Assembly: GCA_030427245.1 (NCBI GenBank)
Contig: JAUHXA010000007.1
Location: 1 to 64,000, forward strand
DNA from: Bacteroidia bacterium
GTDB taxonomy: Bacteria > Bacteroidota > Bacteroidia > Chitinophagales > UBA2359
Direction: 5' to 3'
Length of the DNA stretch: 64,000 nt
Below, one piece after another: positions 1,994 to 50,291 of this stretch. The notes under the pieces were generated by a model. The model did no database searches, was not told where the DNA came from, and was given only the letters and a program-made list of their open reading frames with translations. How positions within the stretch are numbered: the stretch's first letter is position 1; every line of letters begins with the position of its first letter. The position numbers and the translations under genes were made by a program.

Positions 1994-2830
1994 ATGATGA
2001 CAAAAACAAACAAAAAAATGGTACGGGGTATTCAAGTGATTGGAGTTGTGTCTGTATTGATTCCGATAGTGATAACCGCCTTTGAATTGATTACGACCAA
2101 CAAAGAATCCGTTGTATTTTTAGAGAACTTCCATCCGACACTCAGCCTAATCATTCTTTTTTATTATGGATTGCTGATTGTTTTGGGCATATCTTGGCTC
2201 GTGAAACAGCTTATCAACCAAATCAAATTCCTCCTCCAATTGAAGAGCGAAAAAACCAGTGCAGAATTGCTTCACCTAAAAAGTCAGGTCAATCCGCACT
2301 TCTTCTTCAATATGCTGAACAACCTCTACGGTCTGGTCGGAAAAGACGACAAAAAGGCGCAAGATTTGATTCTCAAACTTTCGGATTTGATGCGTTACAG
2401 CATTTACGAAGGACAAAAAGATTTTGTGCCGATTTCGGAAGAGGTCGAATACCTCAAAAACTACATCGAACTGAACAAGATGCGCTATCACAAAAAGATA
2501 GACATACGGTTTGACGCTCAAATTGAAGGAGAATACAAAGTAAGACCTTTGCTTTTCATCCTACTTTTGGAAAATGCGTTCAAACATGGGGTCGAAAAAT
2601 TGAGGGACAATGCCTATGTTCACATCAATATTATTGCACACGAGGAACAAGTACAGTTTTCAGTAGAAAACAATTTTGATTCTTCCGAAAAAGAGAATCA
2701 AGAAGGAAAAGGCATTGGATTGAAGAACCTCAAACGAAGACTGCAATTGGCATATCCCAATGAACATGATTTGTCTTTTTTCGCAACAGGAAACGTATAT
2801 AAAGCTCAACTAAAATTGGTCCATTTATGA
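1994..2830 (+). CDS. Sensor histidine kinase, LytS/YehU type
   Basis: The protein has 278 residues from the ATG at 1994; a GTG at 1967 is a weaker alternative. Two transmembrane helices fill about residues 12-32 and 50-72 with almost no sensory loop. The histidine-kinase core follows: the phospho-acceptor box VNPHFFFN with His102, the N box LLENAFKHG, and the G box GKGIGLKNLKRRL. This is the His_kinase/HATPase_c layout that partners LytTR regulators. The stop codon overlaps the start of the next gene by four bases (ATGA), so the pair is translationally coupled. The lack of a large extracellular domain suggests a membrane or intramembrane stimulus, which is inference. Confidence 0.9.
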   Translation: MMTKTNKKMVRGIQVIGVVSVLIPIVITAFELITTNKESVVFLENFHPTLSLIILFYYGLLIVLGISWLVKQLINQIKFLLQLKSEKTSAELLHLKSQVNPHFFFNMLNNLYGLVGKDDKKAQDLILKLSDLMRYSIYEGQKDFVPISEEVEYLKNYIELNKMRYHKKIDIRFDAQIEGEYKVRPLLFILLLENAFKHGVEKLRDNAYVHINIIAHEEQVQFSVENNFDSSEKENQEGKGIGLKNLKRRLQLAYPNEHDLSFFATGNVYKAQLKLVHL

Positions 2831-3525
2831 TTCGATACTTGATTGTTGATGACGAATACATCGCACACCAAATCATTGAAGGTTACTGCAAACTCTTGCC
2901 CAATATGGTATTGAAGAAAAACTGTTATGATGCACTCGAAGCCTTTGAATACTTGAACGAAAAACCAATTGACCTCATTTTTCTCGACCTCAATATGCCC
3001 AAGTTGAAGGGTTTTGACTTCTTGAAAACCCTCAATTCTCCGCCCAAAGTAATTGTGACGACTGCCTACAAAGAATATGCTCTCGAAGGATATGAGTTGA
3101 ACATTGAAGATTACCTACTCAAACCTTTTGGCTTCGACCGATTTTTGAAAGCCATCAACAAAGCCTTTGGTTCTTCACAACTCCCACAATCTTTTTCAAG
3201 TCAACATACACCTCCACAAAGACGCATTTTTCTGCGAAGTAACAAAAAGTACATACAGGTAGAAGTCGATGAAATTCAGTACTTAGAGGCTTCTGGGAAT
3301 TATACCAAAGTGGTAAACACAAAGGAAACGATTGTCGTTCGAGAGAAAATTTCGGATGTGTTGGCACTCTTACCCAAACAAGGTTTTTTGCAAGTGCACA
3401 AATCCTTTGCGGTTGCTATTTCGCATATCAAAAATATTGAAGGAAACAGGATTGCTATTGGGCAGGATTTTATTCCGATAGGGAAGATGTATAAAGGTGG
3501 GGTTAATCAGCTTTTGAAGTCGTAG
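2827..3525 (+). CDS. LytTR-family response regulator
   Basis: The protein has 232 residues. An N-terminal receiver domain (about 1-120) has the acidic pair DDE near residue 8, the phospho-acceptor Asp in LIFLDLNMP and the conserved Lys in LLKPFGF. A C-terminal LytTR DNA-binding domain spans about 135-232 (IFLRSNKKYIQVEVDEIQYLEASGNY is its first part in abbreviated description: strand, then the YLEA turn). It is coupled to the kinase upstream by a 4-base overlap, so this is the cognate pair. LytTR proteins usually bind short direct repeats; I could not assign a target in this window. The neighbouring secreted deiminase-like gene is a possible but unproven target. Confidence 0.9.
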   Translation: MIRYLIVDDEYIAHQIIEGYCKLLPNMVLKKNCYDALEAFEYLNEKPIDLIFLDLNMPKLKGFDFLKTLNSPPKVIVTTAYKEYALEGYELNIEDYLLKPFGFDRFLKAINKAFGSSQLPQSFSSQHTPPQRRIFLRSNKKYIQVEVDEIQYLEASGNYTKVVNTKETIVVREKISDVLALLPKQGFLQVHKSFAVAISHIKNIEGNRIAIGQDFIPIGKMYKGGVNQLLKS

Positions 3526-3658
3526 ATTTACCTTCAATTAAATTTGAATTCTGGTCTATCTTAAATTCTTTTCCTTAGGAAAAAACCAATTACCGTAAGT
3601 ACAAATACGAGCCAATTCAAAATTAATTCTCTCCAAACATAACTCAGGTCTTTTACCT

Positions 3659-3696
3659 GTTCTTTTGCCTTGACGCAAAAGAACCAAAAAGTCAAG
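3659..3696. repeat. Intergenic hairpin repeat, probably dispersed in the genome
   Basis: GTTCTTTTGC (3659-3668) and GCAAAAGAAC (3675-3684) form a perfect 10-bp hairpin with loop CTTGAC, and that loop is itself repeated in inverse as GTCAAG at 3691-3696. The mutually exclusive pairings look deliberate. Short intergenic sequences of this flavour recur in Bacteroidota genomes, but I see only one copy here. The rest of the gap 3526-3897 shows no gene. Confidence 0.5.
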
Positions 3697-3897
3697 CCTG
3701 AATTTCTTGCTTAACGCTCCAAAAGCACGAAAATCCTAAACAAAATAAACTCGCTACGCTCAAACAGAATTTTGTTCTTAACGGATTTTAGCACTTTTTC
3801 CACTACAAGAAATAAGGGCGTTTAATATGCCTCAAATGTAGTATTTTCACTAACTCTTACCAAAAAAAATATTGTATTTTGGCAATCAATTAGAGGT

Positions 3898-40372: not shown

Positions 40373-40806
40373 GATTCTTTTTTTATATAAGTTTGTAGAA
40401 AGAAAAAATAAACTAAAAAACCTTCCCTTTTGTAAAGGGGTGGAGTAGGTTTGCAGATAATGCACTAACTTATTTTTTCACCATTACTCAAAAACATTTT
40501 GAGTAGAATTTCAGACAACATACAAATTCTATCAACATTAAGTTCACCAAATGGCTTTTAAATTCAACCCAATACAGTCCTTCTATGTTTTGTATCTTCT
40601 TACACTTCAATGATATTTTTCACAACTTTCATATCAGAGCGTTTGAATTATTGTAGCTTTGACATTTTAAGTAGTAAATTGAATTTTCAATTTTTATTGA
40701 AAATTCTGAAAATACAAGAACTTTAATTACTCCGAAAAGGTTTAAACTTATATCAAACCAAAACTCGGATAGCATGCTACTGAAAACCAATTTAAAAAAA
40801 GCAACT
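40373..40806. other. Gene-free gap between smpB and the polyprenyl synthase gene
   Basis: There is no credible gene. TACTCAAAA/TTTTGAGTA at 40485-40505 makes a 9-bp hairpin with a 3-base loop but no T-run. The rest is AT-rich leader sequence for the divergent genes. Confidence 0.4.
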
Positions 40807-41784
40807 ATGTCCCTCACCATTAAGGATATACGACAACCCATTGCAGCAGAATTGGATGTTTTTGAAAAAAAATTCAGAGCATCTATGCAAACCAAAGTGG
40901 CTCTCTTGGACAAGATTATGTATTACATCGTCCAACGTAAAGGTAAACAAATGCGCCCTATGTTTGTGTTTTTTGCGGCAAAATTGATGGGAGGGATTAC
41001 CGAAGCAACGCATCGAGGAGCGGCATTGGTCGAACTCTTGCATACAGCAACCTTGATTCACGATGATGTGGTAGATGATGCCTACGAAAGACGTGGTTTT
41101 TTTTCGGTCAATGCGCTTTGGAAGAATAAAATAGCCGTTTTGGTGGGAGATTATTTGTTTTCGAGAGGAATGTTATTGTCTGTAGAAAATGGTGATTTTG
41201 AATTGTTGAGGATTGTGTCGAGAGCCGTCAAAGAAATGAGTGAAGGCGAACTCCTTCAAATAGAACGCAGTCGCCGCTTGAACTTAGATGAAGAAGTGTA
41301 TTATGAAATCATTCGCCAAAAAACGGCCTCTTTGATTGCTTCTTCCTGTTCGATAGGCTGTGCATCGGTGACAGACGACAAAGAGACACAAAAACTGGTG
41401 TGGGATATTGGTGAAAAAATCGGCATTGCTTTTCAGATTCGAGACGATCTTTTTGATTTTGGCGCAGATACTAAAATAGGAAAACCTACGGGCATTGACA
41501 TCAAAGAAAAGAAATTGACCTTACCTCTGATATATGCGATTCACCATGCTTCCAAAAAAGACAGGAAATATCTCATCAATACCATTAAAAAGCATCACAA
41601 CAACAAAAAGAAGGTCAAAGAAGTCATTGACTATGTTTGGGAAAGTGGTGGAATAGAGTATGCAACAGAAGCCATGCAGAAATACAGAGCCGAAGCAATG
41701 GAATTACTCAAAAAATTTCCTGAGAATGAAGGGCGTAAAGGTTTGGAAGAGTTACTGTGGTTTACGACTGAACGTAAAAAGTAA
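40807..41784 (+). CDS. Polyprenyl diphosphate synthase (long-chain, trans)
   Basis: The protein has 325 residues from the ATG at 40807. It condenses isopentenyl diphosphate units onto an allylic primer, probably to make the side chain of menaquinone. The first Asp-rich motif is LIHDDVVDDAYERRG (Asp86, 87, 90), and the second is FQIRDDLFDF. The FRASMQTKVALLDKIM start and GKQMRPMFVFFAAK fit octaprenyl/heptaprenyl synthases. The small-RNA units begin 46 bases past its stop. Confidence 0.92.
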   Translation: MSLTIKDIRQPIAAELDVFEKKFRASMQTKVALLDKIMYYIVQRKGKQMRPMFVFFAAKLMGGITEATHRGAALVELLHTATLIHDDVVDDAYERRGFFSVNALWKNKIAVLVGDYLFSRGMLLSVENGDFELLRIVSRAVKEMSEGELLQIERSRRLNLDEEVYYEIIRQKTASLIASSCSIGCASVTDDKETQKLVWDIGEKIGIAFQIRDDLFDFGADTKIGKPTGIDIKEKKLTLPLIYAIHHASKKDRKYLINTIKKHHNNKKKVKEVIDYVWESGGIEYATEAMQKYRAEAMELLKKFPENEGRKGLEELLWFTTERKK

Positions 41785-41887
41785 TTGAAGTTTTCGTTCA
41801 TTCCTAATATTTCCCCTTCATTCCTTCAAAATTCCCTTTCACTCCCTTTTAGTTTTTTGAGAATGAATTTCATCTTATATTTGTAGC

Positions 41888-42051
41888 ATAATGAAAACCT
41901 AATATAACCCCTATAAACTACTAATTCTTGAAAAGAAAGATTTCGCCAAAACCCTTGTTTTTATCCTAAAACTAAATAATACCCTAACCCCTAATGACAG
42001 TTTCAGTTCAGTTTAATATAAAATGCCTCACAGTTTTGTGAGGCATTTTTT
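41888..42051 (+). ncRNA. Small RNA candidate, copy 1
   Basis: The repeat unit starts at 41831 (ATTCCCTTTCACTCC). TATATTTG at 41876-41883 is a perfect -7 box, so transcription should begin near 41888. The interior has CGCCAAAACCCTTG, TTATCCTAAAAC and CAGTTTCAGTTCAGTTTAAT. The end is a perfect 11-bp terminator stem (AATGCCTCACA against TGTGAGGCATT, loop GTTT) and a T-run. No reading frame of length is shared between the copies. The expected transcript is about 164 bases. Confidence 0.75.
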
Positions 42052-42157
42052 ATTTGTGGAAATCACTCATTCCTTTATCTAACCTATTCATACCTTTATA
42101 ATTCCCTTTCATTCCTTTTTAGTTTTTTTATATTTTGTTCTACATTATATTTGCAGC

Positions 42158-42307
42158 ATATTAAAACACCTAATAACCCTAAAAAACAGCTAATTTTTGA
42201 AAAGAGAGATTCCGCCAAAACCCTTGTTTTTATCCTAAAACTAAATAATACCCTAACCCTGTATTATTACCCTAAAAAAATGCCTCACAAATTTGTGGGG
42301 CTTTTTT
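42158..42307 (+). ncRNA. Small RNA candidate, copy 2
   Basis: The unit starts at 42101 with the same C-rich box. -7 box at 42146-42153. The interior CGCCAAAACCCTTG and ATCCTAAAACTAAATAATACCC match copy 1 almost base for base, but the CAGTTTCAGTTCAG block is missing. The terminator is GCCTCACA-AATT-TGTGGGGC followed by six T; one U-G pair holds only in plus-strand RNA. The expected transcript is about 150 bases. Confidence 0.75.
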
Positions 42308-42397
42308 ATTTTCCCCCCAACGGTATATTCTTACCTCACATTCAAATTAGAGAATGTAACCTCCTCCTCACAATAGGCACGTAATAAAACTAACTGG

Positions 42398-42437
42398 AAA
42401 AAGAAGGTTATCCGTTGTTTTTGCATGGCTTCTTTTT
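42398..42437 (+). terminator. Hairpin with T-run in the leader of the GH3 gene
   Basis: AAAAAGAAG (42398-42406) pairs with CTTCTTTTT (42429-42437) followed by TTC. It sits about 95 bases before the GH3 start. It may end a transcript from upstream or act as an attenuator; the 22-base loop makes it weaker than the small-RNA terminators. The rest of the gap 42308-42533 shows nothing else. Confidence 0.45.
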
Positions 42438-42533
42438 TTCAAAAGGCATGAATACTGTTTTTTTGTGAAATTCGATTAATTTTAGGCTACTTAACAGAAA
42501 TTTTTATATTCAAGCCTAACTTAATCTGATACA

Positions 42534-44729
42534 ATGAAACTAAAATCTATATTTTTTTGGATAACTTTCTTAATGGTTCATACATTCCTATTATCTAGTT
42601 GCCAAACAGCAGAAAAGAATGATACAAAGGAAGAAAGCATGAAAAAACTCAGTTTGGACGAAAAAGTGGAGGCATTACTTTCGCAGATGACCTTAGAAGA
42701 AAAGGTGAATATGATTCATGCAAGTTCTTCTTTTACAAGTGGCGGTGTGGAAAGACTGGGAATTCCAGAACTTACTATGTCAGATGGGCCACATGGAGTT
42801 CGACATGAACATGGCAGAGATTGGGAGAAAGATAGCAATGTGGCAGATAGCAGCACTTATTTGCCCGTAGGAACAGCATTGGCAGCTACTTGGAATCCAG
42901 ATTTGGGTTACAAGTTTGGAACTGTTTTGGGGAGTGAAGCCAAATTTAGAGGCAAGGATGTGATTTTAGGGCCGGGCTTGAACATCATTCGTGACCCCCT
43001 CAATGGCAGAAATTTTGAGTATTTGACCGAAGACCCTTACCTCAATAGTAGAATGGTAGTGGGATATATCAAGGGCATTCAAGAGCAGGGCGTTGCCGCT
43101 TGTGCCAAACATTATATTGCCAATAGTTTGGAATATGAGCGCCAAAAAGTGAATGTTTTGATGAGCGATAGGGCTTTTCGAGAAATTTACCTTCCCGGCT
43201 TCAAAGCGGCTGTACAAGAAGGGAAAGTACTAACAATTATGTCTGCTTACAACAAATTTAGAGGAGTCTATTGTTCTCACAGTGGCTATTTGTTAGACGA
43301 TGTTTTGAAAGGCGAATTGGGTTTTGATGGCGTGGTCATTAGCGATTGGAATGCCGTCAAAAATACGATGGAAGCAGTAACTGTTGGATTGGATATTGAG
43401 ATGGGAACAGATTTGACTATGTTTGAGACAGGATTTGATTATGGGAAATTTCACATGGGAGATACGGTTGTCACGCTCGTAAAAAACAAGGTAATTGATG
43501 AATCATTGGTTGACCAAAAAGTACGCCGAATATTGAGTGTCATGCACCGTATTGACAAATTTGATGAAACTAAAAAGCAAGGTGCTTACAATACCAAAGA
43601 ACATCAACAAATAGCAAGAGAGATTGCAGATGAGGCGATTGTCTTATTGAAAAATGAAGGTGTGCTTCCATTGAAGAAAGAAAACATAAAAAAAATATCC
43701 ATTGTTGGAGCAAATGCCACACACAAGCACGCTGGAGCAGGAGGAAGTTCACAGGTAAAAGCATTCTACGAAATTACTCCATTGGCAGGACTTCAAAACT
43801 TGCTCGGCGATGATGTAACAATTGAACATTCTCAAGGCTACGAAATAGGGAAGGAGTCTAAGGCAAATCAAAAACTTATCAATGAAGCAGTTAAAAGTGT
43901 AAAAGGGGCAGATGCAGCCATTTACATTGGCGGTGGGTTTCATGGTTTTTCGGATGATTGGAACGACAATTCCTACGATGCCGAAGATCACGATAAAGTC
44001 AATATGATGATGCCTTTTGACCAGGATGAACTTCTAAAGGCGGTTCTAAACGCCAACCCCAATACGATTGTGGTATTGATGGGAGGCGGTCCAGTAGATA
44101 TGCGAGCCTGGTCAAAAGACGCAAAAGCAATTGTTCAAGCATGGTATGCGGGTATGGAGGGTGGCAATGCTTTGGCAAGTGTCCTTTTTGGAGAAACAAA
44201 TCCTTCGGGTAAACTGCCCATGACCTTCCCCGCAAAATTGGAGGACAGTCCTGCACATGCTTTGGCGAAATATCCAGACGAAAGCTTGGTCATTGACCAT
44301 AAGGAAGATATTTTTGTAGGATACCGATATTTTGATACCTATAAGGTTGAACCTGCTTTTGCCTTTGGACATGGGTTGTCATACACTACTTTCGAATACA
44401 AAGACTTGAAGGTGGATAAAAAGGACAATGTAGTTACCTTAAGTTTGGAGGTGATAAATACAGGACAAAGGAAGGGCGCTGAGGTCGTTCAGGTCTATGT
44501 AAAGGATGAAGAATCGAGTTTGAAGCGACCCGAAAAGGAACTAAAAGCTTTCAAGAAAGTATTTCTCGAAGCAGGTGACTCTACTACTATAAAAATAGAA
44601 TTGAAGGAAGATGCATTTAGTTATTACGATGATACACAGAAGAAATGGGTGTTGGAGTCGGGTAAATATACCATTGAAGTTGGGAGTTCTTCGAGGGATA
44701 TTCGCTTGATTGGAGAAGTTGAGTTTTAG
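42534..44729 (+). CDS. Glycoside hydrolase family 3 beta-glucosidase-like lipoprotein
   Basis: The protein has 731 residues. The lipoprotein signal ends at Cys23 (FLLSSC), so it is probably anchored to a membrane facing the periplasm or surface. The GH3 barrel shows LTMSDGPHGVR, GPGLNIIRDPLNGRNFEYLTEDP, AKHYIANSLEYER, and the nucleophile Asp271 in VVISDW. The C-terminal alpha/beta sandwich (to about 600) and a fibronectin III-like domain (to 731) follow. It removes terminal beta-linked sugars from oligosaccharides. It has no polysaccharide-utilisation neighbours. Two small-RNA units flank it on each side. Confidence 0.93.
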   Translation: MKLKSIFFWITFLMVHTFLLSSCQTAEKNDTKEESMKKLSLDEKVEALLSQMTLEEKVNMIHASSSFTSGGVERLGIPELTMSDGPHGVRHEHGRDWEKDSNVADSSTYLPVGTALAATWNPDLGYKFGTVLGSEAKFRGKDVILGPGLNIIRDPLNGRNFEYLTEDPYLNSRMVVGYIKGIQEQGVAACAKHYIANSLEYERQKVNVLMSDRAFREIYLPGFKAAVQEGKVLTIMSAYNKFRGVYCSHSGYLLDDVLKGELGFDGVVISDWNAVKNTMEAVTVGLDIEMGTDLTMFETGFDYGKFHMGDTVVTLVKNKVIDESLVDQKVRRILSVMHRIDKFDETKKQGAYNTKEHQQIAREIADEAIVLLKNEGVLPLKKENIKKISIVGANATHKHAGAGGSSQVKAFYEITPLAGLQNLLGDDVTIEHSQGYEIGKESKANQKLINEAVKSVKGADAAIYIGGGFHGFSDDWNDNSYDAEDHDKVNMMMPFDQDELLKAVLNANPNTIVVLMGGGPVDMRAWSKDAKAIVQAWYAGMEGGNALASVLFGETNPSGKLPMTFPAKLEDSPAHALAKYPDESLVIDHKEDIFVGYRYFDTYKVEPAFAFGHGLSYTTFEYKDLKVDKKDNVVTLSLEVINTGQRKGAEVVQVYVKDEESSLKRPEKELKAFKKVFLEAGDSTTIKIELKEDAFSYYDDTQKKWVLESGKYTIEVGSSSRDIRLIGEVEF

Positions 44730-44811
44730 AGATTTTCCTATTCACTCCCCCAAAATTCCCTTTCACTCCTTTTTGATTTTCAGAACGTAGTTTTCGTTCT
44801 ATATTTGCAGC

Positions 44812-44945
44812 ATACCTAATAACCCTATTAAGAATTAATTATTGAAGAAGGAAAATACGCCAAAACCCTTTTTATACCCTTATCCTAATAGCAGTTTCAG
44901 TTCAGTTTAATAAAAATGCCTCGCAAATTTTGTGGGGCTTTTTTT
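44812..44945 (+). ncRNA. Small RNA candidate, copy 3
   Basis: The unit runs from 44739 (TATTCACTCCCCC) with -7 box at 44800-44807. The interior has ACCTAATAACCCTATTAAG (a possible short hairpin presenting ACCC in its loop), CGCCAAAACCC, and CAGTTTCAGTTCAGTTTAAT. The terminator GCCTCGCAAA/TTTGTGGGGC contains two G-U pairs that work only in plus-strand RNA, then seven T. It starts 10 bases past the GH3 stop. The expected transcript is about 134 bases. Confidence 0.75.
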
Positions 44946-45043
44946 ATGTTGATGCCCTTCAACCTATTTCTATTCACTCCCCCAAAATTCCCTTTCACTC
45001 CTTTTTGATTTTTAGTCGGTAGTTTTCGTCTTATATTTGCAGC

Positions 45044-45178
45044 ATACCTAATAACCCTATTAAGAGTTAATTATTGAAGAAGGAAAATACGCCAAAACCC
45101 TTTTTTTATACCCTTATCCTAATAGCAGTTTCAGTTCAGTTTAATAAAAATGCCTCGCAAATTTTGTGGGGCTTTTTT
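45044..45178 (+). ncRNA. Small RNA candidate, copy 4
   Basis: The unit runs from 44971; -7 box at 45032-45039. It differs from copy 3 at only a handful of bases, mostly between the C-rich box and the -7 box, while the transcribed part and terminator are nearly identical. The expected transcript is about 135 bases. The next gene starts 93 bases later. Confidence 0.75.
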
Positions 45179-45270
45179 AGTTAACTCATCCTTTATTCTT
45201 AACATCCCTTACCTTTATAGATACAACTTTGCAACAGCAAAAAAATATCACCATCCTGTAAACTTTTGAT

Positions 45271-46499: not shown

Positions 46500-49400
46500 T
46501 TATTCAAACCATTTTTCATTCTTTACAATTTCTCCAACAGCTTTCACGTTTTTATTCGCATGAATTCTGCATGTTCTTTCAGCCATTGATGCTATTATCT
46601 TAGGGTATTTTTTAGGCTCTTGCATGATTTTTTTTGCTATATTTATAGGTATTTTAACTGGTTGTAGACGATAAAGATAATGATTGTGATTATGAATCTT
46701 TATTCTTTTGTGTCTATAAAATTCTTCATTTGTGTTGAGGTAGCTATATAGCTTTTTTAACTCCCTTAATATGTTTTCGTTATTGGTATTTTTTAAATAT
46801 TTTTTTATCAAATGCTGAAAGCTTATCTCTGTTATATATACAGGATTATTACTTAAAACATTAGTATTCTTATATATTATAGAGTATCTCGAATCTTCAC
46901 TAAACCTATAACTAATACATAATAGTAATTTGTCAGAAAAGTTATTTAATTCAATTCCTTTCTCCATCTCTACCTGTTGTTTTTGCCTAAATTTTGAAAC
47001 TTTACATACTTTTTTTAAGCTTTCAATTAAATTCAAATATTCATCTTCTTCTAATTTATATACTATTTTATTTAAATCGTCAAATAAGGAAATTATTGTC
47101 CTAGGGGTAGCCCAAGCAAAAAATACTGATAGACAAAATTTAAGATTTTTTGCTTTTTTTATTATTCGTTTCCAATACTTAGTATTACCCGATTTCATTC
47201 TAGCACATCTAACTCGTTTGCATAAAGATATGGTTGAATCTTCTAAATTTTGAAAATCTTCATACTTTGCACTTCTCGCCTTTATTCCCGCTGCTATAAT
47301 CGAAACTAAAACAACACTCCAAGCATCTTTAAAATAGACTATAGAGTTTTCTACTAGAATATCCCATGGTTCTATACTATTTATCCAATTTGATAACTCA
47401 ATTTCAAGTCCATTTTTAATTGACTGATAAAAATTCCTTATGTTTTTATCTATTGAATCTTGTATAGGGAATTCCATAAATTTGTATGCATGGTTTTTTG
47501 CTCTATATAAGCTCCTATTGCCATCAATTACATCCAAGATGAATTCTTTCAGAGAAATGTTTGGCAATCCACTTTCAAAAATACGTGATAATAAAAAAGG
47601 ATTCCAAACAATGCTTAATAATTGTAGGCTACTACGATTTATTTCTTTTAAATTTATTACACTAAGCTTTCCCGATGTTACACCAATCAGTGCTTTTTGT
47701 TTAAGTTCAGAGTCTTTATTAATGACATCTATTTTATTACCATTAATTGCTACTTGAATCTTATTAATTACACTATTTAGATTTCCTTTTTTTATCAATC
47801 TTGTGAGTAATTTATTATCAGCTTTGTATATAACCTCTAGCCAGTAACCGTAAATAAACCATATAGTAAGTTTTTTTCCTTCAATCTGTTCAGCATATTT
47901 CTCCCAAGAAATAAGGTTATTGTATGGATTATTTTTAATAATACTAATCAATTCATGTGCATAGTCACTTAAAGGAAAGGTTTTTAATTGTTCAAAACAT
48001 TCAGACACTAATTCTTTTCTGCCACATTCATTTGGAAGTAATATAGGTTCATCGTTATAATATCTACCACTTTCTTGATTGAGAATACTTCCAATATTTA
48101 CACCATCAACAATAATTTTAACCACATTTTTGAGTAACTTAGGATATTGTGTAAAAACCCAGTCTGATAGTATTTGTGAAGTCAATAAACGAGGATAGTT
48201 TGTGTATTTTAAAAATTCATCTTCTTGTAGCTCTTCTAACTTATAAATTAGCATAGGTAACTCACCTCTATCGAAACACCCTGTAAAAAAACGAACTACA
48301 TTATTCCAATAAAAATTTTTTGCAATTGCTTCAAATCTTTCGGGCTTTGTTCCTTTCTTCTCATATCCCGAGGGAGAATATGGTGATGTATTATAAAGGT
48401 ATCTAGCGCAAAAATATTCACGTAATGGTTGAACTTCAAACTCAAATGTTCCTTGAACTCGTGAGACTAAGGCGCATACTCTTTCTTTCATAACATCAAA
48501 TAGTTTGTCTCCAATATCTGTTTTATGCCCTTCATATTCAAGATAGTCTTTCAACCTATTTTTCAAATCTTCTATTCTAATTCTACCACTATTTTTTAAT
48601 AGTTCTGCCTCGGAATGGAGAATCCATGCGAGGTATTGATGTATATCAATAATAAGTTCTCTATTCTCCCGAATTAAAATATTTTTTTCAGATTCTCTAT
48701 TGAAAAAAAGCTCAATATAACTGTCATATAGTGCTGTACGTTTGTTAGGTAAGGACTCTCCTCTTGTTCTAAGCAAACTTATAAATATTGCAAGTTGCAT
48801 TGGACTTTTAGTTAAATCTTTTAGGTGTGGCATTTCCAATTTTTCGTTGACGAGTTTTTTTATATTTACAGCTTCTCTGCTATCTAATCTGCTTGCTTTT
48901 ATCCACTTATCAACATACTCTCTTATTATAGAGGGCGTAATTTCTCCCAACTCAAAATGTGGATACAAGTCATCTGAAAAACCTACAGAGTCTGAAAATA
49001 CGGCTGGTCTACTAGTTACTAAAACTTGAATGGATTTAGTGTATTCGGATATTCTATTAATACCTTTGTTAATAAATTCAATTACCTCTCCTCTCACTTT
49101 CAAATTTGCAATTTCATCAAAACCATCAAAAACTAGTAAAACTGAACTAACTCTTAGTATAGCTGCAAAATCATTAGAGCTAAATTTATCCATCTTAGAA
49201 TGATAAATAATATGCGCTACAAGAAAAGATTCTAATGAATTTTTCCAAATAGTTTTAAAAAATTTATCATTAAATTCAATTTGATAAGGATTCTTTTTTT
49301 CGACCCAAGAAGCTATGTCTCTTAAATCAATTTTTAATGGCAATCTTATTGAAGATTTTTTCAGATGTTCTGGCAATAATTTTAAATCACTTACTCTATT

Positions 49401-50291
49401 CAATAATTTAGCTCTATGTACTTGGCATACATACTGTGAAATTGTAGATTTCCCCTGCCCTGGTCCAGCTTCCAACAAAACTCTTTCAATATTATTTTGT
49501 ATTCTTGAATCCAATAAAAAAGCAGCTGCCCCTAAATGATTATTGTCTTCAAACAAGTGTCTTTCATATGGATTTAACTCCATATATTTTTTTATCAGAA
49601 AAGTATGTTTTTTATAGTACTTATTTCTTTCGTTAATTTTCTTAATTCTGATTGGTACATCAGTAAACAAATCAAACAATTTATTTTGTAATTCAATTTG
49701 TTTAAATTTTACCTCACTATCAATATCGTATTGGTCTGCCAAATATGCTTTTATTGTATCTTCTCTACGCTCTCTATTTTCATTTAAGTTCTGAAAAAGG
49801 GCTGAATTTAATATATCTTGTCCATTTAGTACTTCTGGAAAAGACCATTTGAAAAGCGGATTACTTTCTAGTTTTCTTGATAAATCATCTCGCCACCAAC
49901 ATAAAGAGGGAATACTCATTTCTTTTTCAAGTATACTATTAACCTTATTAATAGACCCTGAATCTAAATAAGCAGTCCCAGCTACATTGGTCAACAAATA
50001 AAATTTTTTTGCTCCATTAGGAATAAGCCTATTCATTTTAGGAGCTTCCGCTTGTATAATGCCAGTTAACCATTGGTGTACATCTTGTATTTTTTTTGGA
50101 TTACGAACAAATTTTACCTGAAATACAATAAATTCTTTTTTAGTTGTCTGCATAAAATAACCTATCGAATCTCTACCTCCATCTCTCTGTCCTACTGGAA
50201 AAGACTGGAAATCAGGAAATTCATTTGCAATTAAAGAACTACAAAACTCTTGAAATCTCTCAGGACCTAAATTTTCGTAGAGATAATCCAT
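46500..50291 (-). CDS. Defence STAND protein: Mrr-like nuclease domain plus NACHT NTPase
   Basis: The protein has 1263 residues. The N-terminal 1-170 fits a PD-(D/E)XK/Mrr-type endonuclease (FQEFCSSLIANEF, RDGGRDS with Asp, IVFQVKF with the Q-x-K pair). The NACHT domain (about 265-500) has Walker A GPGQGKST, Walker B LLVFDGFDEI and LVTSRP. The long C-terminal half is helical, without obvious LRR or TPR repeats, and probably senses the trigger. This is the plan of antiphage bNACHT/Avs proteins, which cut DNA when a phage product is sensed. Codon third positions are visibly more AT-rich than in gltB, suggesting acquisition from elsewhere. Confidence 0.85.
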   Translation of the reverse strand: MDYLYENLGPERFQEFCSSLIANEFPDFQSFPVGQRDGGRDSIGYFMQTTKKEFIVFQVKFVRNPKKIQDVHQWLTGIIQAEAPKMNRLIPNGAKKFYLLTNVAGTAYLDSGSINKVNSILEKEMSIPSLCWWRDDLSRKLESNPLFKWSFPEVLNGQDILNSALFQNLNENRERREDTIKAYLADQYDIDSEVKFKQIELQNKLFDLFTDVPIRIKKINERNKYYKKHTFLIKKYMELNPYERHLFEDNNHLGAAAFLLDSRIQNNIERVLLEAGPGQGKSTISQYVCQVHRAKLLNRVSDLKLLPEHLKKSSIRLPLKIDLRDIASWVEKKNPYQIEFNDKFFKTIWKNSLESFLVAHIIYHSKMDKFSSNDFAAILRVSSVLLVFDGFDEIANLKVRGEVIEFINKGINRISEYTKSIQVLVTSRPAVFSDSVGFSDDLYPHFELGEITPSIIREYVDKWIKASRLDSREAVNIKKLVNEKLEMPHLKDLTKSPMQLAIFISLLRTRGESLPNKRTALYDSYIELFFNRESEKNILIRENRELIIDIHQYLAWILHSEAELLKNSGRIRIEDLKNRLKDYLEYEGHKTDIGDKLFDVMKERVCALVSRVQGTFEFEVQPLREYFCARYLYNTSPYSPSGYEKKGTKPERFEAIAKNFYWNNVVRFFTGCFDRGELPMLIYKLEELQEDEFLKYTNYPRLLTSQILSDWVFTQYPKLLKNVVKIIVDGVNIGSILNQESGRYYNDEPILLPNECGRKELVSECFEQLKTFPLSDYAHELISIIKNNPYNNLISWEKYAEQIEGKKLTIWFIYGYWLEVIYKADNKLLTRLIKKGNLNSVINKIQVAINGNKIDVINKDSELKQKALIGVTSGKLSVINLKEINRSSLQLLSIVWNPFLLSRIFESGLPNISLKEFILDVIDGNRSLYRAKNHAYKFMEFPIQDSIDKNIRNFYQSIKNGLEIELSNWINSIEPWDILVENSIVYFKDAWSVVLVSIIAAGIKARSAKYEDFQNLEDSTISLCKRVRCARMKSGNTKYWKRIIKKAKNLKFCLSVFFAWATPRTIISLFDDLNKIVYKLEEDEYLNLIESLKKVCKVSKFRQKQQVEMEKGIELNNFSDKLLLCISYRFSEDSRYSIIYKNTNVLSNNPVYITEISFQHLIKKYLKNTNNENILRELKKLYSYLNTNEEFYRHKRIKIHNHNHYLYRLQPVKIPINIAKKIMQEPKKYPKIIASMAERTCRIHANKNVKAVGEIVKNEKWFE

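Follow-up and report, generated by a model that had tools for sequence, protein, structure and literature searches.

Repeated units and their promoters

The window (the whole stretch of 64,000 nucleotides that was analysed) is contained in a draft genome of 7.58 Mb in 187 contigs, and includes four related units, u1 to u4, all on the + strand. u1 and u2 are located 3′ of a prenyl-synthase-like gene (40774-41784), and u3 and u4 are located 3′ of a glycoside-hydrolase-like gene (42534-44729). Alignment of u1 to u4 showed in each a promoter, an intrinsic terminator and, between them, a G-poor interior of ~95-130 nt; exact copies of TATATTTG, CGCCAAAACCCTT and TATCCTAA are common to all four, as is a GC-rich hairpin with a T-run behind it. 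The promoter, shared interior and terminator, together with a C-rich box, had been reported at these positions in the initial annotation, and a terminator scan recovered the hairpin of all four units. The predicted sRNA starts were placed according to the -12 to -5 position of TAnnTTTG in Flavobacterium (PMC9723704). The features of the units are:

41817..41845 (+): u1 candidate regulator box, direct repeats TTCATTCC (41817-41824) and TTCACTCC (41838-41845)
41876..41883 (+): u1 -7 box TATATTTG, exactly 30 bp past the second repeat
41888..42052 (+): u1 predicted sRNA, ~165 nt; core CGCCAAAACCCTT at 41944-41956, terminator at 42020-42052
42087..42115 (+): u2 candidate regulator box, TTCATACC and TTCATTCC, 21 bp apart
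42146..42153 (+): u2 -7 box TATATTTG
42158..42307 (+): u2 predicted sRNA, ~150 nt, 13 motif matches; terminator at 42277-42307
44741..44769 (+): u3 candidate regulator box, two copies of TTCACTCC, 21 bp apart
44800..44807 (+): u3 -7 box TATATTTG
44812..44946 (+): u3 predicted sRNA, ~135 nt; terminator at 44913-44946
44973..45001 (+): u4 candidate regulator box, two copies of TTCACTCC, 21 bp apart
45032..45039 (+): u4 -7 box TATATTTG
45044..45179 (+): u4 predicted sRNA, ~136 nt, near-identical tandem copy of u3; terminator at 45147-45179

Over the shared stretches u3 and u4 are ~95% identical and the other units ~66-86% identical, levels that exclude chance resemblance and therefore indicate common descent of the units as paralogues. 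u3/u4 is a recent tandem pair and u1/u2 an older pair. Elsewhere in the window, positions 46500-50291 (-) encode a 1263-aa protein with a restriction-endonuclease-like N-terminus and a P-loop NTPase (GPGQGKST), which by eye resembles STAND/NACHT defence proteins.

The C-rich box of the initial annotation is present in all four units, but its description was incomplete, as the box is really a direct repeat, TTCAYnCC-N13-TTCAYnCC, with a 21-bp period and located exactly 30 bp upstream of TATATTTG. At up to one mismatch the box motif was seen 17 times in the window compared to 5.6 expected, and the four exact matches are those of u1 to u4. The sequence TTCCCTT starts exactly 44 bp before TATATTTG in all seven of the best copies, with no matches for a control pattern; the second repeat is degenerate in two copies found outside the window (C95 and C85b, below). 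In Flavobacterium, the -7 consensus of sigma-A is TAnnTTTG (PMC9723704). The stretch where a -33 element would sit is poorly conserved among the unit promoters, which would fit an activator-dependent promoter. A search for the promoter pattern across 84,980 species gave only two isolated matches, judged to be due to chance.

Further members and the RNA interiors

A promoter model built from the seven copies was searched over the draft genome and found u1 to u4, C95, C85a and C85b, followed by a site at C142/C45 (one locus, since the ends of these two contigs overlap) and C65. A model of the RNA core found exactly five copies in the genome, u1 to u4 and C95, the latter being a fifth full member with promoter, interior and terminator in common with the window units. 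C85a, C85b and C142/C45 have the promoter of u1 to u4 and a terminator each, with different interiors, giving five full paralogues plus three promoter-sharing units, or about eight predicted sRNA genes altogether. A match on C28 was rejected as the overlapping end of C85, and those lower-scoring matches that were inspected resembled coding sequence. C65 was left out of the sRNA count, as its -7 box is degenerate and it drives an outer-membrane-type gene. This ninth copy of the box (L053 ~3569-3780, - strand; -7 sequence GAATATTG) is upstream of the gene for a 250-aa outer-membrane-type protein, and the long leader of that gene contains AACCCTAAC. A MITE-like inverted-repeat element of ~130 bp (AGTAAAAAAGAAAAAATAACTC...GAGTTATTTTTTTACCCTTACT) was also seen between the two units of C85 and flanking the C142/C45 unit on either side:

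L009 3319-3450: inverted-repeat element, C85
L048 ~125-250: inverted-repeat element, C142
L049 ~240-365: inverted-repeat element, C45

When the whole window was compared with Rfam (4227 models) at the gathering threshold, only a tRNA passed. The Infernal search that the initial annotation had proposed gave no membership of a known family, and relaxing the threshold to permissive values brought up nothing relevant, the best match over the units being BTnc231 (RF04180), a weak sub-threshold match over u1 (24.6 bits compared to a gathering score of 80.4), with no match for u2 to u4. The search for further copies in related genomes, proposed at the same time, found none, as BLAST and a covariance model gave chance-level matches only for the RNA interior in 60 genomes of the order. 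The earlier proposal of a paralogous small-RNA family is well supported by the further members, the rigid promoter spacing and the lack of a matching Rfam family.

The interiors have a G content of ~6-11% and contain no GGG, and six of the eight carry repeated ACCCU, CCCUA and CCUAA; the motif is absent from C85b and present once in C142/C45. In C85a it forms an array of a 32-nt repeat with ~5.6 copies. In a scan for pentamer clusters over 1.83 Mb of the genome (both strands, G content limited), the three densest were u2 (13), C85a (11) and u1 (9), and the next highest had 5. Because unrelated control pentamer sets also reached clusters of 6-10, several in simple tandem repeats, a large cluster is not by itself distinctive; what matters is that C85a, which was found by its promoter, ranks with u1 and u2. 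The predicted unpaired fraction of the motif sites is 0.75-0.89 in u1, u2, C95 and C85a, and about half in u3 and u4.

The statement in the initial annotation that there is no shared reading frame needs correction, as a TTG-led frame of 9 codons, ending P-K-P, is common to five members, but the statement is right in that the frame is not kept beyond this point. The frames then diverge, with u3 and u4 differing by 2 nt where the frame breaks after PKP, and an 11-nt core, CGCCAAAACCC, is nearly invariant, third positions included; on both grounds the units are unlikely to be coding. The earlier argument that the terminator stems keep pairing by G-U changes is true but thin: two of the eight stem pairs vary, each at just one of its two bases and never with a compensatory change, and a shuffle control for stem covariation was without power.

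The repeat box and LytTR regulator operons

LytTR regulators bind paired repeats, direct or inverse, that measure 9-11 nt each and are separated by 11-13 nt; the sites have no shared consensus (PMC4847170). The TTCAYnCC repeats, with a 21-bp period and 30 bp from the -7 box, fit this geometry (PMC4847170). The window genome has 15 LytTR matches, one with internal stop codons, and 14 of the 15 are additional to C73. Within the family, the exact pattern TTCAYTCC-13-TTCAYTCC-30-NANNTTTG occurs only in u1, u3, u4 and C85a and at one place in the relative G012, where it heads an operon encoding a TonB-dependent-receptor-like protein, a 216-aa protein, a His_kinase protein and a LytTR regulator. In G009, a match with two mismatches precedes genes for a small secreted protein, a LytTR regulator and a His_kinase protein. 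The G012 and G009 regulators are 46-50% identical to C73, which is the clear best match for both in the window genome; the next LytTR protein of that genome, among those fetched, is 30-34% identical.

A further 20 loci of this regulator group were drawn from the family by protein similarity alone and searched with a box-plus-promoter score requiring at least 13 of 16 repeat positions and at least 5 of 6 positions of the -7 box. The score was reached twice in 317 kb (both strands, 20 loci), in G004 and G015, and both sites are in the non-coding stretch directly upstream of the regulator-bearing operon. The upstream non-coding sequence scanned came to ~9.4 kb in total, with G012, G009 and the loci of the window genome included; the score was reached three times in 237 kb of upstream non-coding sequence of the window genome, u4 being among these. 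The threshold had already been set when the scan was narrowed to non-coding sequence, but the analysis came after discovery of the G012 and G009 sites, which makes this a consistency test that is not fully independent. A de novo repeat search showed that G002 has a related repeat, CCGTTTCGCCC / CCGTTTCACCC, with the same spacing, and an operon scan gave a weaker site in G008. Most of the 20 loci had no clear box, several being cut by contig ends. Together, a box with the same spacing is found directly upstream of His_kinase-LytTR operons, with kinases of the LytS type, in G012, G009, G004, G015 and G002, and overall in five to six related genera. The same promoter design before a two-component operon in relatives points to an external signal that would switch on the RNA set as a whole. 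No recognisable box precedes the operon of C73 itself, so that the window genome does not show the autoregulation that the sites in relatives suggest.

The C73 locus (L202 5369-8462) has the candidate regulator behind an Amidase_3 (N-acetylmuramoyl-L-alanine amidase) gene and a gene for a receiver + His_kinase protein, a gene neighbourhood that hints at a cell-envelope signal. The window also encodes a LytTR response regulator (2827-3516, +) with a histidine-kinase ORF upstream (~1994), which is 24-26% identical to the box-linked group. The initial annotation had missed three things: the repeat structure of the promoter, further members whose interiors differ, and the connection with a two-component system.

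Proposed circuit, rival readings and known systems

From the LytTR-type geometry, the box upstream of the regulator operons of relatives and the presence of C73 as their orthologue, we infer a LytTR-switched sRNA family. Combined with the observed paralogy, rigid promoter spacing, extra members and motif clustering, the units are probably one regulon of non-coding small RNAs that is switched on by a LytTR two-component system and whose motifs act in trans. C73, the best candidate for the regulator, would be partnered with the LytS-type histidine kinase encoded just upstream, would bind the two TTCAYTCC repeats (the candidate site) and would recruit housekeeping RNA polymerase to the TATATTTG promoter, which lies 30 bp further downstream. 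The dose would be multiplied by transcription of several copies together, and each predicted RNA would stop at its own intrinsic terminator, exposing a G-poor stretch with ACCCU/CCUAA motifs. These motifs may then act in trans post-transcriptionally, and the likeliest mode would be short, redundant pairing with a limited number of mRNAs. Counting against this circuit are the missing box at the C73 operon, the 14 other LytTR matches in the genome, the many loci among the 20 that show no clear box, the motif being unpaired only about half the time in u3 and u4, its absence from C85b and single copy in C142/C45, and the failure to find RNA homologues in other genomes.

The suggestion in the initial annotation that the RNAs might bind G-rich sites was not borne out at start regions: in ungapped comparisons with 941 of these, covering about a quarter of the genome, the RNAs were no more complementary than reversed or reverse-complement controls, and TTAGGG occurred only five times in the 941 leaders. 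Broad anti-start-region activity is therefore not indicated, and a few specific targets would escape this test. Among possible modes of action, we place redundant short pairing with a limited set of targets ahead of protein titration. In the latter, the ACCCU/CCUAA repeats would act as a sponge, capturing an RNA-binding protein (e.g. an RRM-domain protein) and releasing the mRNAs that this protein targets whenever the two-component system is active. The many short motif copies in a mostly single-stranded, G-poor body, with C85a as a 32-nt array, the missing start-region pairing signal, and a genome in which four RRM_1 proteins were found and Hfq was not detected all favour the sponge, but in mRNA leaders the motif is about as frequent as composition predicts (CCCTAA 27 times compared to ~19 expected, with 12 of 60 anagrams equal or better). 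We know of no RRM protein shown to bind an ACCCU/CCUAA motif, which also counts against the sponge, and we consider it unlikely. That a Bacteroidota LytTR system works via a burst of repeat-bearing RNAs titrating an RNA-binding protein, a sponge-type circuit with a new protein-motif pair, is quite unlikely.

The RNAs could also be real and the box be read by a tandem-binding regulator of another class. The missing box at the C73 operon and the lack of a shared consensus among LytTR sites (PMC4847170) would allow for this, but in five to six related genera a box with this spacing precedes LytTR operons, which points back to LytTR and leaves a non-LytTR activator unlikely. It is very improbable that the units are inert or selfish, MITE-like duplicated intergenic DNA that happens to carry a promoter and terminator: some copies are at contig ends and the unrelated inverted-repeat element adjoins the C85 and C142/C45 units, but the units themselves showed no terminal inverted repeats, they retain promoter spacing, terminators and motifs while other sequence diverges, and C85a keeps the motif despite its different interior. 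Most improbable are leader peptide or attenuator cassettes, in which the TTG-led mini-ORF, with its frame to P-K-P in five members, and the terminator would control downstream genes; against these, u1-u2 and u3-u4 are arranged head-to-tail with a terminator each, the downstream genes differ (glycoside-hydrolase-like, 188-aa protein, protease-like), and the break after PKP and the core almost invariant at third positions argue against a conserved peptide.

To our knowledge, few activators of small RNAs have been identified in Bacteroidota. For the LytTR-switched family favoured here, sequence comparison names a specific candidate regulator, its likely binding site and its predicted RNA outputs, and provides a recognisable box for LytTR regulons in this bacterial group; the motif-array RNA would also be a useful case for Hfq-less sRNA action in Bacteroidota. 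Literature titles and abstracts gave no case of LytTR-controlled sRNAs in Bacteroidetes. The direct repeats of YpdB, GGCATTTCAT, resemble the window box in having two promoter-upstream repeats with LytTR-type spacing, and the TTCAY core resembles ATTTCAT; the YpdB site drives yhjX and not an sRNA family (PMC4847170), and the window box is a candidate site. The FopS sRNAs of Bacteroides thetaiotaomicron are likewise multicopy Bacteroidota sRNAs with a housekeeping sigma-type promoter in an RRM-bearing genome, and these paralogous sRNAs associate with the RRM protein RbpB, while their activator is described as unknown (PMC11697453). FopS RNAs are ~65-70 nt with a 5′ seed (PMC11697453), whereas the predicted window RNAs are ~135-165 nt, contain motif arrays and have a repeat box of their own upstream; compared with the FopS/GibS definition of ~65-70 nt and a 5′ R1 seed, the window RNAs differ in length, and no match was obtained with Rfam. 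By analogy, the predicted family may be closest in design to LhrC under LisRK in Listeria monocytogenes, where several sRNA copies are under one two-component system, and both have redundant C-rich (in LhrC, CU-rich) sites (PMC4132741). The phylum, regulator class and motif differ from those of LhrC; no sequence relation is expected, and the likeness is one of circuit logic.
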